Shown piece after piece: positions 1,963 to 12,226 of a DNA stretch of 64,000 bases; the stretch's first letter is position 1; each line of letters starts with the position of its first letter. This stretch comes from Candidatus Zixiibacteriota bacterium (GTDB lineage: Bacteria; Zixibacteria; MSB-5A5; GN15; FEB-12), in the NCBI GenBank assembly GCA_024278935.1, contig JAJRSF010000062.1, forward strand, positions 1-64,000. Reading direction: 5' to 3'. The translations under genes and the position numbers were made by a program. The notes beneath the pieces are model-generated. The model did no database searches. It saw only the letters and a list, made by a program, of their open reading frames with translations, and was not told the DNA's origin.

Positions 1963-4900
1963 ATGATAAAAAAATCGATTTTATGCATTTTTATAATATT
2001 CGGGGTGGCAGCAGTTGCACATTCGCAATCTATCATTCCAATATCATCATTTTCAAACAGTCAGGAAAACACAAGTTCATCGTCATTTCAAAATTCCGAT
2101 GTTGTCATATCTGGATCAAATTTAATCAATGGGCAAGAGTATCTGATTTTTTATTCTGTCGCGTATGGCGGTGGAGGTACATCTGATCTCCCCGAAGTAA
2201 CAGTAAGTTATGGCTCTACCGATATCGCAAATGGTGCCGATGAAGGTTCCTCAAGTGGAACTCCCGAGGCAATGCGGGTAGCTTCGCTACATGGTTATTA
2301 TATTTTAACAGGCGATGGAACTTCGGACTTACGAATCAGGTGGAGGATTCAATCCGGTGCTGATGCATATATTACCGGTAAATCACTCATAGCAATTCCG
2401 CTCAATTCCCTGACGCTCAATACCGACTATTGGTACGCTGTTCAAAATGGTGATGCCTCAGAAATTTCAACGACATCTTCGTTTACAAATTTAATTACAT
2501 CAACAGTCAGTCTGCCGGAGACCGGTGACTATCTTGTACTGATGAGTGCTGAAGGGTGGACGCAGAACGGTTCTGCAAATGACGGCGAAGCATTCCGCAC
2601 TGTCATAAACAGTTCAACTCAAAAAGATGTGATGGTTAAAGAATGGGAAAATGATAACGCTCGTCGTTCGTTTTCATATGCACGGATACATAGTCTGAAT
2701 GCCGGTAACAATACTTTTGATTTAGAAGTTGGTTCAGGCAAAGGGTCAAATTCAAAATCTTTTCGTCGGGGAAGGATTATAATTATCAAGTCAAGTTCTT
2801 TTGAACAGATGGTCTCGACATCAAATAATAATGACTTCACTAACACATCCAATTACTCTTCATTCGGAAACTACTTAAGCCAATCGTATACACCAAACCA
2901 GTCGGAGCATGTTGTCATTATTGGTAACGCATGGTGTGAACAAGGACAAAATTTTCGTTCAGTTATCATGCGACTCGAAAACTCAACCGACAACAGTTTT
3001 TTCTCAGACTATATTTCCGATGATGCCAAACTTCTCGGCTTTGATACACCAATGCTTTCAACCTTTGGAACCGAACAAATTTCATCACAGAAAAATTATG
3101 TTTTACAGGTTTCAGGCGAGTCATCATATTCAACCGCTAACCACTTTCAATATGGCGACTTAATTGTATGGAGTATGACTCAGGTCTCATCAATGCAACC
3201 ACCGGTTGTCACAGATATTCCCAACCAAACAATTTCCGAAGGTTTCACTTTTGCAACAATTAGTTTAGACAATTATGTAAGTGACCTTGACAATATTGAT
3301 TCTGAAATCTCTTGGACATACTCTGGCAACACAGAACTTACCATAACTATAAATGCGAGTCGTGTTGCGACAATTACAATTCCAAACCTAGATTGGAATG
3401 GTGCCGAAATAATTACATTCCGAGCTACCGACCCTGATTTACAATTCTCCGAAGATGTTGCCACTTTTACCGTGACTGCCCAAAACGATGCACCGGTTGT
3501 GACAAATATACCGAACCAAACTATTGATGAAGGTTTAACTTTTACAACTATCACACTTGATAATTTTGTGTCAGATATTGATAACAATGATGCCGAAATG
3601 GTCTGGACGTACTCAGGCAATACAGAACTTACCGTGAGCATTGATGCAAGCCGTGTAGCAACAGTAACAATTCCAAATCTGAATTGGAATGGCACCGAGA
3701 CTATTACGTTCCGAGCAACCGACCCGGGAACTCTTTGGTCAGAAGATATTGCAACATTTACTGTGACTGCACTCAATGATAATCCAACAATTTTAGCAGG
3801 TGCATCAACAGTTACAACTTCTCCTGTAAACAGAGTAGGTAACAATACAACAATTTTTTCAGCCGACTTTACCGACATTGATCAACCGCTTGTCAGTTCT
3901 TTTTCAGTTACTCTGAAAATAAGAGAACCGAACAACACAACAGAACTTATCCTAGTAAATAATCTTACCGATGGTAACGGTGGACTTACCGTTGTTGATA
4001 ATGGCGGAGGTTTTTACACCGCAAGTTTTACATACGACCCATCTGTTGGACAGACACTTGGTTTATATGATTTATACTTTGAAGTGAACGATGGTGCTGT
4101 TTCAGCTATTGATGGTTTTGCAAATAACATTGATGAACTTGAAATCATACAGGTCAACACCCCAACACTAGTAGCAGGTGCTACCCAAGTTTCTGTTTCA
4201 CCTGTCAATAGGTTTTTAACAAACAGTACAATAATATCAACAACATTCAATGACCTTGACCAACCGGGAGCGTCAGCATTTACCTGTAGTTTTAAAATTC
4301 GCCAACCTGACAATGCAACAGAATTATTTTTAGTGAACGGACTTACTAATGGAAACGGCGGACTTTCAATAGTTGACAACGGCGGCGGTTCCTATACCGC
4401 AAGCTACACCTATAACCCTGACGATGTGCAAGTCCTCGGTCTATACGATTTATATTTTGAAGTAACCGATGGAACCGGAAGCGGGGTTGATACATATGCG
4501 AGCAATTCTGATGAACTAGAGATCAACGAAGTCCTTCCACCTGCTTCACCGATTATTATAGCAGGAGCATCGGCAGTCAGTTTTTCTCCGGTCAATCGTC
4601 TTGGCAATAGTGCAACAACTATCACCGTAGACTTCACCGATAGCAATATGCCACCTGTGTCATCGTTCATAGTTCTTCTAAAAGTTCGAGAACCTAACAA
4701 CGCAACCGAGTTGATTCTTGTAAACAATTTGTCCAATGGTTCCGGCGGTTTATCTATTTTAGATTATGGTGACGGTTCTTATAGCGTAGGCTTTACTTTT
4801 AATCCAAACGATGCACAAACTTTAGGATTCTATGATATCTATTGTGCAATCGACGATAACACTGGCACCGCAACAGCAGTTGATGACTACACAAACAATC

Positions 4901-7641
4901 TTGATGAATTTGAAATAATAGAGTCACTTAATAATGAAGCACCAACAGTACAGTCCGATGCTACCATTGCAGTTCCCGCTGGTGTTGAAAGAATCGGCAA
5001 CAACCCAACAACGATTTCGGCACAATTTTCTGATTTAGATATTCCGGGCATCACTGCGTTCCAAGTAAGTTTTAAACTTCGGTACTCAGTCGACCAGTCT
5101 GAAATTATTCTCGCCGACAATCTTACCAATGGTACTGGTGGAGTTACAATTTCTGATTTAGGAGCAGGTCTGTACGAAGCATCTATCAGCTGGAACCCTC
5201 CCGATGCACAACCGCTCGGTTTTTATGATCTGTATTTCCATGTGACCGATGGTATTGATATTTCAATAGATCGGTTTGCAGATAATCGTGAAGAGCTCCA
5301 ACTTTTTGATGCAATCTCAAACAACCCACCTGCCTTGGTAGCCGACACAACTTTTGCTCTGCCAATTTCTGTCAATAGAATTGGTACAGAATTTACAATG
5401 TTAAAAACAGCTTTCTGGGATGCCGACTATCCCGGCAACGGAGCTTTTACCATAACAATTAAGGTGCAGGACCCATTGCTATTAGAAACTATTATAGTGA
5501 ACTCTGCCAAACATGGCGAACAAGGACTACGTGTTGTCCATCGAGGTGATTCACTTTATGAAGCATCTGTCTTATGGGATCCTAGTGTTGTAGCTGTGAC
5601 TGGTTTATATGATTTATATTTTGAAGTTACCGACAACAACGGTGCATCGGTCATTGATGGCTACGCAATAAACGCAGGCGAACTTACAGTTACGTCGTCG
5701 GCTCCTTTAGGCGATGGGTTCCTTCTGCATCGCACCAATGATGCCGAAGGATGTGGAGGTCCGACCAGTGCCTGTCATAACCTCAAAGGACATAAAGCAC
5801 AAGACTGCCGAACCTGCCATGAACCTCATTCGACTACTAATATTTACTTGGTGAAAGACTCAATCCAAACTCCGAACTCAGGGCTTCGTGAAGTTATTTT
5901 TAAAACGCTTGGAATCGGAGACCCATACAATGACCCCGACCCTGTTGTAGGCGATGCTACTTCGGGTGTACTTGCCGATGATGCCGATGGTGTCAACACC
6001 GGTGTATGCGAAGTTTGTCATACCGCTGTGAACCATCATACCAACGATGATTCCCATGCCGGACAAGCACACCACAACGCCGAAGACTGCACTAGCTGTC
6101 ATAGTCATGCCGATGGTTTTGCTGGTGGTGAATCGGGTGGTGGTGATGGATGTTCTTGTCACTCAGAAATTTTATCGTCGATGCAAGATGGCACCGCATC
6201 GTCGTACCATCATTTTATTCAGACAGATAATGCTGACTACAATGTAACATCAAAAACTTGTCTGATGTGTCATGTACATCATGATATTTTCAGACCTGAC
6301 CTCAACCCTGGATTTGGACAACGAGCAAGCAATCTTCGGGCTGACATAACAACACCGGTGGTGCAGGGTGATGCGACGGTTCTCGCAAATTCTGATTATC
6401 TTGTGACTGGTACAGGTGGCATTTGTCTTTCTTGTCATACTTCTACGCAAACAAAAAGTTACGTTCAACCGGATGGAACAACACAAACACCTCTGCTTTC
6501 AAAAACAGATTATGACAATGCAACTTCGGCTCACAACTATAGCATTCCGATTACATTTGCAAGTGACGGTTCTATTTTTAATTCTAACTGTACTAAGTGT
6601 CACAATGATAATATGACAAAACAATATCAGAACTCAACAAGAACTGTCAGCACTCATGACTCCGACATTCGTCGAATGCTTGACTCGCTTGGCAATGCCA
6701 CACCATCTGACCCCCTTGAAGAACAATTTTGTTTTAGTTGTCATTCAACAACATCAAACCCGAATGCAGGTGCAAATCTAGATTTCTTTGGCGTCAAAGG
6801 GATGGGTGTAGACGCTATCAATATCGAAGCAATTTTTAACCAAACTTTCAGCCACCCTGTTTCGGCAACATCGGGAGTGCATTCACCACTTGAAGATGCC
6901 GGCACGATGGCACGCCATGTTGAGTGCGAAGATTGTCATAACCCTCATGCTGCAGCAACAGGTATAGGCGGTACAGGGTTGCCGAACTCACTCATAGGTG
7001 TCAGTGGTATCGATGAACTCGGTAATCCGATTGCATCGGTTACCGCAAGTCATCAAATCTGTTTCAAGTGCCATGGTGATAACCCGGGCAACAATACCCA
7101 AATAACTAGACAGTTTAACAATGACTTAAACACACGGCTTGAGTTCAGCTCTGCATCTGCTTCGTACCATCCTGTTACAGCAGTAGGTAAAAACAATAAT
7201 TCTCCATCGCTAATAAATGGCTGGACAGAGACAAGCATTATGACTTGTTCTGATTGTCACGCATCTTCGGTGGGAACTGTCAACGGACCGCATGCATCTG
7301 AGAATAATTACCTGCTCAAACTTCGGTATGATTCAGGTGACAACTTAGCTGAATCTGCATCTCGGTATGCGTTATGTTATTCTTGTCATGATAGAAATTC
7401 AATTCTAAATGATGAGAGTTTTGGTGACCACGACAAGCATATCAGAGGTGAAAATGCTCCTTGTTCGGTTTGTCATGATGCCCATGCCTCTACGGGTCAG
7501 GAACATTTGATTAACTTTGATATCAATGTCTGTACACCGGGCGGAGGTCGACTTGAGTTTACAGATGATAGTCCGACTCAATTTAGAGGAACTTGTTATG
7601 TGACATGTCATGGGAAAGATCATACCCCAAAAACTTATTAG
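1963..7641 (+). CDS. Giant secreted Ig-like/cadherin-like repeat protein with C-terminal multihaem cytochrome c domain
   Basis: 1,892 residues. A Sec signal peptide (residues 1 to about 22, ending AHSQ) is followed by a beta-rich region (about 25-410) containing related strands such as YLIFYSVAYGG and YLVLMSAEGW. Two cadherin-like repeats start near 413 and 511 (both with IPNQTI), then five repeats of about 105-130 residues start near 607, 733, 863, 993 and 1122, each with an N-terminal AGA/DAT motif and GLYDLYFEV-type strands. From about 1264 to the end there are 12 canonical CXXCH haem motifs (CRTCH to CSVCH) in doubled-CXXCH arrangement, plus variant CX6CH, CXCH and CX3CH sites, and many spare His residues. 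I infer a periplasmic or surface-anchored electron-transfer protein held away from the membrane by an Ig stalk. No C-terminal anchor or sorting domain is visible. It is transcribed alone. Confidence 0.88.
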   Translation: MIKKSILCIFIIFGVAAVAHSQSIIPISSFSNSQENTSSSSFQNSDVVISGSNLINGQEYLIFYSVAYGGGGTSDLPEVTVSYGSTDIANGADEGSSSGTPEAMRVASLHGYYILTGDGTSDLRIRWRIQSGADAYITGKSLIAIPLNSLTLNTDYWYAVQNGDASEISTTSSFTNLITSTVSLPETGDYLVLMSAEGWTQNGSANDGEAFRTVINSSTQKDVMVKEWENDNARRSFSYARIHSLNAGNNTFDLEVGSGKGSNSKSFRRGRIIIIKSSSFEQMVSTSNNNDFTNTSNYSSFGNYLSQSYTPNQSEHVVIIGNAWCEQGQNFRSVIMRLENSTDNSFFSDYISDDAKLLGFDTPMLSTFGTEQISSQKNYVLQVSGESSYSTANHFQYGDLIVWSMTQVSSMQPPVVTDIPNQTISEGFTFATISLDNYVSDLDNIDSEISWTYSGNTELTITINASRVATITIPNLDWNGAEIITFRATDPDLQFSEDVATFTVTAQNDAPVVTNIPNQTIDEGLTFTTITLDNFVSDIDNNDAEMVWTYSGNTELTVSIDASRVATVTIPNLNWNGTETITFRATDPGTLWSEDIATFTVTALNDNPTILAGASTVTTSPVNRVGNNTTIFSADFTDIDQPLVSSFSVTLKIREPNNTTELILVNNLTDGNGGLTVVDNGGGFYTASFTYDPSVGQTLGLYDLYFEVNDGAVSAIDGFANNIDELEIIQVNTPTLVAGATQVSVSPVNRFLTNSTIISTTFNDLDQPGASAFTCSFKIRQPDNATELFLVNGLTNGNGGLSIVDNGGGSYTASYTYNPDDVQVLGLYDLYFEVTDGTGSGVDTYASNSDELEINEVLPPASPIIIAGASAVSFSPVNRLGNSATTITVDFTDSNMPPVSSFIVLLKVREPNNATELILVNNLSNGSGGLSILDYGDGSYSVGFTFNPNDAQTLGFYDIYCAIDDNTGTATAVDDYTNNLDEFEIIESLNNEAPTVQSDATIAVPAGVERIGNNPTTISAQFSDLDIPGITAFQVSFKLRYSVDQSEIILADNLTNGTGGVTISDLGAGLYEASISWNPPDAQPLGFYDLYFHVTDGIDISIDRFADNREELQLFDAISNNPPALVADTTFALPISVNRIGTEFTMLKTAFWDADYPGNGAFTITIKVQDPLLLETIIVNSAKHGEQGLRVVHRGDSLYEASVLWDPSVVAVTGLYDLYFEVTDNNGASVIDGYAINAGELTVTSSAPLGDGFLLHRTNDAEGCGGPTSACHNLKGHKAQDCRTCHEPHSTTNIYLVKDSIQTPNSGLREVIFKTLGIGDPYNDPDPVVGDATSGVLADDADGVNTGVCEVCHTAVNHHTNDDSHAGQAHHNAEDCTSCHSHADGFAGGESGGGDGCSCHSEILSSMQDGTASSYHHFIQTDNADYNVTSKTCLMCHVHHDIFRPDLNPGFGQRASNLRADITTPVVQGDATVLANSDYLVTGTGGICLSCHTSTQTKSYVQPDGTTQTPLLSKTDYDNATSAHNYSIPITFASDGSIFNSNCTKCHNDNMTKQYQNSTRTVSTHDSDIRRMLDSLGNATPSDPLEEQFCFSCHSTTSNPNAGANLDFFGVKGMGVDAINIEAIFNQTFSHPVSATSGVHSPLEDAGTMARHVECEDCHNPHAAATGIGGTGLPNSLIGVSGIDELGNPIASVTASHQICFKCHGDNPGNNTQITRQFNNDLNTRLEFSSASASYHPVTAVGKNNNSPSLINGWTETSIMTCSDCHASSVGTVNGPHASENNYLLKLRYDSGDNLAESASRYALCYSCHDRNSILNDESFGDHDKHIRGENAPCSVCHDAHASTGQEHLINFDINVCTPGGGRLEFTDDSPTQFRGTCYVTCHGKDHTPKTY

Positions 7642-7805: not shown

Positions 7806-9656
7806 ATGAAAAAAAATAGCAACGACAATTCACATACCGATATTCTCTTGGCAAAAAATTCTTTGGTACATCACCATCGCATCATCAAAAAGATTGGTGC
7901 CGGCGGTATGGGTGAGGTGTATCTTGCTGAAGATACAAAACTGAAGCGTCAGGTTGCTCTGAAATTTTTGCATAAAGATCAAACGAGTAATTCTCTCCTG
8001 TTATCTCAATTTCTAAAAGAAGCCCAAGCAGTAGCACGTTTGCAACATCCCAATATTATAACAGTTTACGAAGTTAACGAATATAAAGAGATGCCATATA
8101 TTTCTATGACATACATTGAAGGGCAACCTCTTAATGAGTTTGTGGCGAATAAATATCTTTCGGTGGATGAGATTATCGAGATTGCTATACAGATCGCTTC
8201 GGGACTTACCGAAGCACATCAAAGAGGTATTACTCATCGAGATTTAAAACCAAGTAATATCATGGTTGATAAAACTGATACAATAAAGATTCTAGATTTT
8301 GGCTTAGCAATTTTAACAGATATAGAATCATTAGATGACCCCGACCGTACCGCTACCAGTAATCAATTTGGAAATCATATTGCCGGAACTCTTTTGTATA
8401 TGTCGCCGGAACAATTACTTGGGCATGAGATAACGCACCAGGTAGATATTTTTGCTTTTGGTTTGATCATGTATGAGCTAGTATCAAAACAGCATCCTTT
8501 TTCAGCAGATTCTGTGTCTGAAATTTCAGCAAAAATACTGCGTGACACACCAGAAAAATTATCAAACTTTCGGGAAGATATTCCTTACGATTTAGGTCGA
8601 ATCATCACTCGTTGTTTACATAAAAACAGACTTAAGCGATTCCAATCTGCCCGTGATATTCTTAATGAACTAGAAGAACTTGTCAACCAACTTAAAAATG
8701 ACATCAACGTAAATATTATTAATAACGGAACGACTAAATCTGCACCTACTCTTACCGAAGAATCTTTTGTACTGACCACAGACTTAGTTCGTAAATTATC
8801 AACCAAGAATCCAAAGATGATTGGCACTAAACTCGCCTATATAGATAATCAGGTTTCTTCCGATGAACTTATATTTTATCTGCATGGCATGGGTGGTGAT
8901 CACAGGCAGTTTTCAGATGCACTTCGTCAGTTGCCGTATCGTGCGATTGCTTTATCATTGTACGGTTTTGATGAAAATGCACTGCTCAGAGTTCCTCTTG
9001 CACTGCATGATTATTCTATTTTACTCCATGCGCTACTAAAAGATATCTGCCGAAGATTAAAACCGAAAAAAATTGTTCTGGCAGGTTTTTCTTCAGGAGC
9101 CGACCATCTGCTTCATTGTCTGACTTCTGAATTATTTAATGATATCAAAATTACCGGGATGTTATCACTCGGAAGTAATATTCATGTAGAAGATTGTTTT
9201 GCTTCAAGTAAAATTGCCGAGATGACATCAGGCGATGAAAATCAAATTCTTTCAATTATTAAACTATTTAGTAGTAACGCATCGTCAATAAGTGACTGGC
9301 TGATTTTACATAACTATCTTGTTATGGCATTCTCTAAATTTGGAATAGAAACAGAACCATTTAGAAAATATGCAGCTGATATTTTAGAACCTTTTAAAGA
9401 TCGGAATTGGACTCAGTTTCCAAACTGGTATAAGCATTGTATAAAAAATATTCCTCATGTCCGCTTTATTGTTGATACCGGTGGGTACAATACTTTAGAT
9501 GAGCTTATGCAGAAACATCTTGAAAATAATATTCTTGGTGATAGTTTTGACGAAAGTACAATGGTTCGTGTTTCAGAGTCACATATGGATTTAGTAACAA
9601 CTAAAGATGTCGTAAGATATACCCATGACTTTATGGAGTTGATAAACTCTAAATAA
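7806..9656 (+). CDS. Serine/threonine protein kinase fused to an alpha/beta-hydrolase domain
   Basis: 616 residues, no membrane segment. The N-terminal eukaryote-like kinase has a glycine loop (GAGGMGEVY, 31-39), catalytic Lys53, HRDLKPSN at 144-151, DFG at 164-166 and SPEQ at 200-203, so it looks catalytically complete. A linker (about 290-350) leads to an alpha/beta-hydrolase domain: strand plus oxyanion segment LHGMGG (359-364), nucleophile elbow GFSSG with Ser429, a late acid candidate, and a likely catalytic His at about 593 (SESHMD). The hydrolase part resembles the phospholipase/carboxylesterase branch by motif only. A kinase fused to a serine hydrolase is not a combination I recognise as standard; the hydrolase may be an output domain controlled by the kinase. 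The gene is transcribed alone from its own promoter and is a paralogue of the next gene over the kinase part. Confidence 0.85.
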   Translation: MKKNSNDNSHTDILLAKNSLVHHHRIIKKIGAGGMGEVYLAEDTKLKRQVALKFLHKDQTSNSLLLSQFLKEAQAVARLQHPNIITVYEVNEYKEMPYISMTYIEGQPLNEFVANKYLSVDEIIEIAIQIASGLTEAHQRGITHRDLKPSNIMVDKTDTIKILDFGLAILTDIESLDDPDRTATSNQFGNHIAGTLLYMSPEQLLGHEITHQVDIFAFGLIMYELVSKQHPFSADSVSEISAKILRDTPEKLSNFREDIPYDLGRIITRCLHKNRLKRFQSARDILNELEELVNQLKNDINVNIINNGTTKSAPTLTEESFVLTTDLVRKLSTKNPKMIGTKLAYIDNQVSSDELIFYLHGMGGDHRQFSDALRQLPYRAIALSLYGFDENALLRVPLALHDYSILLHALLKDICRRLKPKKIVLAGFSSGADHLLHCLTSELFNDIKITGMLSLGSNIHVEDCFASSKIAEMTSGDENQILSIIKLFSSNASSISDWLILHNYLVMAFSKFGIETEPFRKYAADILEPFKDRNWTQFPNWYKHCIKNIPHVRFIVDTGGYNTLDELMQKHLENNILGDSFDESTMVRVSESHMDLVTTKDVVRYTHDFMELINSK

Positions 9657-9745: not shown

Positions 9746-12226
9746 ATGACAGAACAAAACGACGACAATACCCATATCCATATAGTCTTGGCAAAAGACA
9801 CGATGGTACAGCATTATCGCATCATAAAAAAAATTGGTGCTGGTGGCATGGGGGAGGTATATCTTGCTGAGGATACAAAACTCAAGCGTCAAGTAGCTCT
9901 GAAATTTCTCCCGCATCATTATCTCCCAAATGATGATATTAAATTACGGTTTCAACGTGAAGCTCAAGCAGTCGCCAAATTAAATCATCCTAATATCGTA
10001 ACCATTCATGAAGTTTCAGAATTTAATGGTCGACCATTTTTTGTCATGGAAAATATCGATGGTAATTCCCTACATCACTTCATAAAAGAAGAAGCATTAC
10101 CAATAGATTCGATTATCGAGTATGCTATTCAAACCTGTCAGGGGTTGGGAGAAGCGCATCGGAATGGAATTATACATAGAGATATAAAACCTGCTAATAT
10201 TGCTGTTGATAATACAAATAGAATAAAACTGTTAGATTTTGGTTTGGCTACTTCAGAGGGGGATGATAAATTAACCAAAACAGGTTCCACTCTTGGAACA
10301 GTTGCCTATATGTCTCCCGAACAAGTGTCAGGACGAGAGATTGACCATCGCTCTGACCTTTTTTCATTGGGTGTTGTATTGTATGAGTTATTATGTGGAA
10401 GAACCCCGTTCAAAAAAGATAACGAAGGAGCAACCTTAAAAGCTATCATTGAAAAAGATCCCGAACCACTCAGCAGATATAAATCAGAGGTGCCTGATAA
10501 ATTACAAGAAATTATCTCACAGCTTATCGAAAAAGATAAAGAACTTCGTTATCAATCTGCCGAGGGTGTTATTGCTGATTTAAAACGGTTGATGTATGAC
10601 TCACAGCAATCTTCATTTAGACCAGAACAATCAAAAAAGAAAAATATCTTTCTGTTACCGATTTCTATTTCAGTTGTAGCAATTGTTTTGATTACTGTTT
10701 GGACTTTGTTATTCAATAATAAAGAAGATACCAAAGAGATAAAAATTCCTGTTTTAGTCGTGCTTCCATTTGAAAATTTAGGATCGGATAAAGATGAATA
10801 TTTTGCTGATGGTATCAGAGAGGAAATCGGTTCACGATTATCTTCTATTAAAGGACTTAGTGTGATCTCACAAAGGTCCGCTGATAATTATAAAAAAACA
10901 GATAAGAGTATAGAACAAATCGGTACGGAAACAGGGGCTGATTATGTTCTTGAAGCTACCATAAGATGGGATAAATCGGGTAACATTGACCGTATCCGCA
11001 TAACACCAAGGCTAACCAAAACATCAGATAATTATCTGATGTGGGCTGAAAATTATGAAGAACAGCTTGTTCAGATTTTTGTCGTTCAATCAAAAATAGC
11101 TGAACAAATTGTAAATGCTCTAGGATTGACATTGGTGGATACGGACAAGGCTGCTCCAGACTATGCTCCAACGACCAATATGGAAGCTTATAATTACTAT
11201 CTACGAGGGCTTGAGATTTCCAGCCATACCTTTAGAATGTCTGAGTTTCAAGAGTCAGTCAGTATGTTTGACTCTGCTATTGCGTTAGACTCAAGTTTTG
11301 CTTTAGCTTGGGCACATAAGTCTATTAATCATTCAACATTTAATTTTTTCTTCACTACTGTGGACTTCAACTATCATAATGAAGAAGCTTTAAGAGCTGC
11401 AGAAAAATCTCTTGCTCTTGCTTATAATCTTCCGTCAGCGAAAATTGCAATGGGAACCTACTACAATTATATTGAGAGAGATTATGATAAAGCATTAGAG
11501 TACTTTGCATCAGCCAAATCTGAAACTATCAGCAATGCTGAACTTTCTCAGGCTATTGGAGTTGTTAAAATGCGACAGGGGGAGTGGAATGAAGCACTCT
11601 CACATTTTGAAGAGGCAATTCAAATTGATCCGTTGAATGATATAAGGTATTATTATATAGCGAACTGTCTCTCTATGACTCGTGATTATGAAGCGGGTGA
11701 GAAGTATATTAACCGAGCCCTTGTTCTTGATCCTACTAATGTAGATGCAGCTTATATGAAAATTTTTGTAAATCAGTTACGTTATGGGACAATAGAGCAT
11801 GAAGAAAATTCATTCAGTAAATTAACTGATAAAGCAGGTTTGGCTGAAATCTCAACCTATGAGCTTGTTTCAGCAACAGCTCTTGGCTTATGGCGATTTA
11901 TTATAGATAGAATTGATTATAAATTGGAAATAAAAAATATTCGTCGTCTCGGCAATATTCGAGGTTCTATCAATGAAAGACAGCAACATATGTTACATCT
12001 GAGTATTGCTCAAATATATGACCTGATTGGACATAATGATTCAGCACTTGTACATTATGATTCTTCACGAATTATTTTAGAAAATGTGATAGAGCAAGGT
12101 GTGTATGAATTTCATGCCTTCGCCGAACTTGGTGTATCATACGCATTTCTTGGTATGAAAGATGAAGCGATAGAAGCAGGTATCACAGCCAAAGAATTGA
12201 TGGCGGTTAGTGACTGTCATTGGTGA
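9746..12226 (+). CDS. Membrane serine/threonine protein kinase with TolB/FlgO-like and TPR sensor region (C-terminus cut by in-frame TGA)
   Basis: 826 residues up to the stop. The kinase domain (about 26-280) has GAGGMGEVY, ALKF, HRDIKPAN, DFG and SPEQ, and its first 45 residues are nearly identical to the preceding kinase. A transmembrane helix follows a KKK stretch (about 298-320), so the rest is periplasmic. Residues 333-475 resemble the TolB/FlgO-like amino domain usual in this family (VVLPFENLGSDKDEYFADGI). TPR units follow to the end. The frame stops at TGA 12224-12226 after SDCHW, but reading continues in the same frame into a normal family C-terminus, so the gene is probably interrupted by a point mutation. 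A kinase of this architecture would pass a periplasmic signal to cytoplasmic targets; the signal is unknown. Confidence 0.88.
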   Translation: MTEQNDDNTHIHIVLAKDTMVQHYRIIKKIGAGGMGEVYLAEDTKLKRQVALKFLPHHYLPNDDIKLRFQREAQAVAKLNHPNIVTIHEVSEFNGRPFFVMENIDGNSLHHFIKEEALPIDSIIEYAIQTCQGLGEAHRNGIIHRDIKPANIAVDNTNRIKLLDFGLATSEGDDKLTKTGSTLGTVAYMSPEQVSGREIDHRSDLFSLGVVLYELLCGRTPFKKDNEGATLKAIIEKDPEPLSRYKSEVPDKLQEIISQLIEKDKELRYQSAEGVIADLKRLMYDSQQSSFRPEQSKKKNIFLLPISISVVAIVLITVWTLLFNNKEDTKEIKIPVLVVLPFENLGSDKDEYFADGIREEIGSRLSSIKGLSVISQRSADNYKKTDKSIEQIGTETGADYVLEATIRWDKSGNIDRIRITPRLTKTSDNYLMWAENYEEQLVQIFVVQSKIAEQIVNALGLTLVDTDKAAPDYAPTTNMEAYNYYLRGLEISSHTFRMSEFQESVSMFDSAIALDSSFALAWAHKSINHSTFNFFFTTVDFNYHNEEALRAAEKSLALAYNLPSAKIAMGTYYNYIERDYDKALEYFASAKSETISNAELSQAIGVVKMRQGEWNEALSHFEEAIQIDPLNDIRYYYIANCLSMTRDYEAGEKYINRALVLDPTNVDAAYMKIFVNQLRYGTIEHEENSFSKLTDKAGLAEISTYELVSATALGLWRFIIDRIDYKLEIKNIRRLGNIRGSINERQQHMLHLSIAQIYDLIGHNDSALVHYDSSRIILENVIEQGVYEFHAFAELGVSYAFLGMKDEAIEAGITAKELMAVSDCHW

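Follow-up and report, generated by a model that had tools for sequence, protein, structure and literature searches.

INTRODUCTION

Bacterial Ser/Thr kinases with unusual tails are common; most have repeat or binding domains attached, and the accessory domains at the C-terminal end are usually inputs. In plants, D14 is, like KAI2, an alpha/beta-hydrolase receptor. In planctomycetes, kinases have C-terminal WD40 and TPR repeats (PMC11032199), and the alpha/beta hydrolase KAI2 has been described as a receptor (PMC10504578, PMC8837635). The catalytic triad of the hydrolase RsbQ is needed for signaling via the Ser/Thr phosphatase RsbP in Bacillus subtilis, and the RsbQ-PAS sensing module is coupled to several output domains; RsbQ-type hydrolase modules are described as having an unknown physiological cue (PMC3183031).

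The locus described here resembles Hanks-type kinases with TPR, WD40, or PASTA tails in having an N-terminal Pkinase domain with the full motif set, a variable C-terminal domain, and several copies per genome, but the protein is soluble, it has no repeats in its tail but an alpha/beta hydrolase that looks intact, and its kinase domain belongs to a clade of its own with a longer activation loop. As in RsbQ-RsbP, a triad-bearing alpha/beta hydrolase is tied to Ser/Thr phospho-signaling, a likeness drawn by functional analogy: RsbQ is a separate protein that acts through a PAS domain on a PP2C phosphatase, whereas here the hydrolase sits on a kinase and there is no PAS domain. Plant KAI2 and D14, likened to this protein by description only, are not fused to kinases.

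RESULTS

A kinase and an alpha/beta hydrolase in one soluble chain

The fusion gene occupies positions 7806 to 9656 on the forward strand of the window, that is, the whole 64,000-nucleotide stretch of a Candidatus Zixiibacteriota contig (JAJRSF010000062.1) that was analyzed. It starts with ATG and encodes 616 aa with no transmembrane-like segment (maximum hydropathy, 1.29), so the soluble chain would place its hydrolase in the cytosol together with the kinase. The first-pass annotation had read this gene as a complete kinase domain followed by an alpha/beta hydrolase, and both the complete kinase and the joining of the two in one chain were borne out; in ten genomes the kinase and hydrolase halves both keep their catalytic residues. 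The kinase domain (positions 7881 to 8666, + strand; residues 26 to 287), which was delimited by Pfam, genome search, and alignment, is covered by PF00069 (Pkinase) with an E value of 3.3e-55. It has GAGGMG, Lys53, Glu72, HRDLKP, and DFG in place and thus every feature of a Hanks-type Ser/Thr kinase (P-loop, VAIK lysine, HRD, and DFG); in the alignment these motifs are retained in nearly all family members, and HQD replaces HRD in one (L003/L028). The PASTA (PknB/Stk1) kinase model NF033483 matches the kinase part only, at 287 bits against a cutoff of 450, and the PASTA layout is absent from the fusion protein, which lacks a membrane helix.

Beyond a linker of about residues 288 to 318 (8667 to 8759, + strand), which evolves faster than either domain, residues 319 to 616 (8760 to 9653, + strand) form the hydrolase domain with its helical cap, delimited from subthreshold Pfam matches, an AlphaFold (AF2) model, PDB folds, and the family alignment (A1). 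Pfam matches of the window protein to alpha/beta hydrolases are real (Abhydrolase_1, E value of 4e-4), yet all fall under the curated cutoffs; 7 of 10 family members match Abhydrolase_2, the best at 2.3e-5. Modeling of the domain with ten homologs gave a pLDDT of 71.8 and a pTM of 0.72, with strands and helices in the order typical of alpha/beta hydrolases, whereas a single-sequence prediction of the whole protein (pLDDT of 37) was set aside. When the domain model was compared to the PDB with Foldseek, it matched alpha/beta hydrolases at E values of about 1e-8 and TM scores of about 0.5, including esterases, haloperoxidases, haloalkane dehalogenase, and MenH. Judged by the weak Pfam matches, the model, and these fold matches together, the region from about residue 319 to 616 is an alpha/beta-hydrolase fold. 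One PDB sequence match, of residues 168 to 204 of the hydrolase piece to PI3K-gamma (E value of 0.003), disappeared when the family profile was used, and we regard it as chance.

The predicted triad follows the sequence order of the superfamily: Ser429 as nucleophile (9090 to 9092; A1 column 111) in the elbow GFSSG, which fits the G-x-S-x-G pattern, Asp557 as acid (9474 to 9476; column 239), and His593 as catalytic histidine (9582 to 9584; column 275), all on the + strand. All three are unchanged in ten aligned members with 42 to 77% identity to the window protein. The structure prediction called for in the first-pass annotation places them where they would be expected in this fold, with Ser429 at the elbow between strand 104-110 and helix 112-122, Asp557 at the end of strand 233-239, and His593 past the last strand, 268-271 (A1 numbering). 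That annotation had also pointed to HGMGG, GFSSG, and a late histidine, all of which are present (HGMGG at residues 360 to 364), but the HG is not conserved in the family, where HS, PP, PA, and HP occur. The triad is predicted to be enzymatically active. The cap, roughly residues 458 to 536, is poorly modeled (pLDDT below 50), and the substrate class therefore cannot be read from it; the high conservation of W180, H184, Y186, and FSKF within it (A1 numbering) suggests a specific ligand.

Nei-Gojobori dN/dS estimates were 0.10 to 0.15 for the kinase and 0.07 to 0.33 for the hydrolase, low values in both halves from which we conclude that both are maintained by selection. Among diverged pairs the linker gave 0.20 to 0.43 compared to 0.07 to 0.15 in the domains, with dS there near saturation, and in close pairs it was higher, on very few changes. 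In these codon comparisons, kinase and hydrolase are both under purifying selection and the linker is looser.

Distribution and descent of the fusion

The hydrolase domain alone served as the query against 98 relatives and then against 132 Candidatus Zixiibacteriota genomes. It was matched in 11 of the 132, a patchy distribution, and was essentially intact in 10, in every one of which it is joined to the kinase; two separate genes were never seen among the 132. Nine of the ten genomes hold a full-length chain, and the copy in the tenth (G070), cut by a contig end, still begins inside the kinase; G093 has a second fusion copy that a contig end also cuts. The eleventh genome (G031) contains a 146-aa remnant in which the N terminus of the kinase is joined to the C terminus of the hydrolase (L011 / L037:7309-7749), evidently decayed and lost through internal deletion or frameshift.

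Phylogenetic analysis separated the fusion kinase domains, as a single clade, from the TPR kinases (support, 99/99); the tree of the hydrolase domains agrees with the kinase tree broadly, if not in full. Taken together, the separate clade and the broadly matching trees point to one old fusion whose halves then descended together, which is the simplest reading. One fusion gene (L033; G064:C148) is 94% identical to those of L029/L030, as is the adjoining gene (94%), while the genomes are placed in different families, and this may represent a recent transfer or a misbinned contig. No significant match was found in viral contigs or phages. We also read nine matches to the alpha/beta-hydrolase profile in long frames of the relatives, taken as a sample from among the matches listed (down to an E value of about 1e-6; 41 genomes); the nine, which include MenD-MenH, isochorismatase-hydrolase, and DPP-like proteins, had no kinase motifs, and none was an independent kinase fusion. 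Outside the phylum, WP_331761798.1, a plasmid protein of Streptomyces sp. NBC_01546, matches the hydrolase core (tblastn E value of 1e-4; hhalign E value of 3.6e-12 over 172 columns at 23% identity) and has the same GFSxGAD elbow, but its N-terminal side has hydrophobic segments that may anchor it in a membrane, and it lacks a kinase; this type of hydrolase therefore exists apart from the kinase.

Gene neighborhood

A tandem paralogous kinase that is not part of the fusion follows at 9746 to 12226 (+ strand). The first-pass annotation had ascribed to it a membrane-TolB-TPR tail; the Pkinase domain, one membrane helix near residue 301, and the TPR tail are present, but no Pfam model matches the middle part, where TolB had been proposed, above threshold (only LpoB, E value of 0.098). 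A TPR-type kinase also stands directly after the fusion gene in G002. The two window genes are nearly alike over their first roughly 55 codons only, through the P-loop and VALKFL (7806-7975 versus 9746-9915; 72 to 84% DNA identity, dropping to 56% in the next stretch), and both tandem copies read IIKKIG/KRQV in G000 and IIEKIG/KRNV in G002. These matching starts hint at exchange between neighbors; alternatively, they might reflect selection on the P-loop. The fusion activation loop is 9 residues longer in the alignment than that of the TPR-type neighbor and holds several Thr/Ser, and this, together with the separate clade, argues that the pair is not one kinase module with a swapped tail.

No partner gene other than further kinases is conserved next to the fusion; the surroundings vary between genomes, with tandem TPR-type kinases in some and, at one locus (L031; G022:C4:198000-214000), a cluster of about six genes, or pieces of genes, for Ser/Thr kinases around the fusion gene. 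An RsbP-type PAS protein is absent beside the hydrolase, where the adjoining gene is the TPR kinase; the nearest PAS protein seen, 6 kb away, is a hybrid histidine kinase at 2 to 1666 (PAS, HisKA, HATPase, and receiver) with the coiled repeat QQLKASNQQLSASE on its N-terminal side. Between them, positions 1963 to 7641 encode a secreted-looking protein of 1,892 aa with Ig/cadherin-like repeats and a C-terminal multiheme region (doubled CXXCH, cytochrome c7).

DISCUSSION

The hydrolase is probably either a chemical sensor of the kinase or an output that the kinase controls. By analogy with described systems, we favor a cytosolic Ser/Thr kinase with a C-terminal hydrolase as its sensory module, to which we give a probability of roughly 0.4. 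The pocket under the helical cap would bind a small metabolite, whether an ester, lactone, thioester, or acyl compound, and probably turn it over; this event would alter how active the N-terminal kinase is or how it pairs, and the kinase would then phosphorylate target proteins. The input role, the kind of ligand, and the way in which the halves are coupled are points that we infer from the attachment to a kinase in all 10 genomes, the invariant triad, the selection on both domains, the retained kinase motifs, and precedent, in which accessory domains are usually inputs and RsbQ lies upstream of phospho-signaling. The lack of any conserved partner but kinases also fits a self-contained sensor-kinase. 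On the other side, the invariant triad would suit a plain enzyme equally well, and the fusion has no counterpart of the PAS domain through which the RsbQ signal passes. More tentative than the sensory role itself is the narrower proposal of a one-chain hydrolase-receptor kinase, in which a hydrolase that cleaves a small molecule would directly gate a Ser/Thr kinase and do the job of RsbQ and RsbP in one protein.

The first-pass annotation had instead called the hydrolase an output, with one kinase module joined to two outputs; this was not established, and precedent points at least as much to input. A kinase that senses some other cue and phosphorylates itself or the chain, switching an esterase or thioesterase on or off, is possible but ranks below the sensory reading. 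The intact triad under purifying selection, the full kinase motifs, and the longer activation loop with its several Thr/Ser would suit such an effector, but the chain has no separate sensor domain, and a C-terminal domain is usually an input in bacterial kinases. Two activities without mutual control, for example with the hydrolase serving the pathway of the kinase targets, in effect a fused operon, would explain the fast-evolving linker and the distant homolog without a kinase; we consider this unlikely, as the fusion is never split in the phylum genomes searched. It is more doubtful still that the hydrolase is a noncatalytic binding domain with a relic triad: the oxyanion-side HG varies, as could happen where catalysis is unneeded, but Ser, Asp, and His are invariant across ten divergent members. 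An anti-phage kinase system like PD-T4-6 is very improbable despite high PADLOC scores for that system, since the matches span only the kinase, such models are matched by generic kinases, no PADLOC model matches the hydrolase domain, and no conserved neighbors indicate a defense island.

Some proteins of other phyla that combine Pkinase and Abhydrolase domains are listed in public databases, and a search of the open literature, incomplete in coverage, yielded no account of this architecture. The conserved, intact-looking hydrolase tail is a further variant among the tailed bacterial kinases and not a separate class of system. If the sensory reading of the fused hydrolase is true, a soluble, enzyme-bearing class would be added to the bacterial Ser/Thr kinases, and a sensor and kinase in one soluble chain would permit direct screening for ligands by kinase readout.
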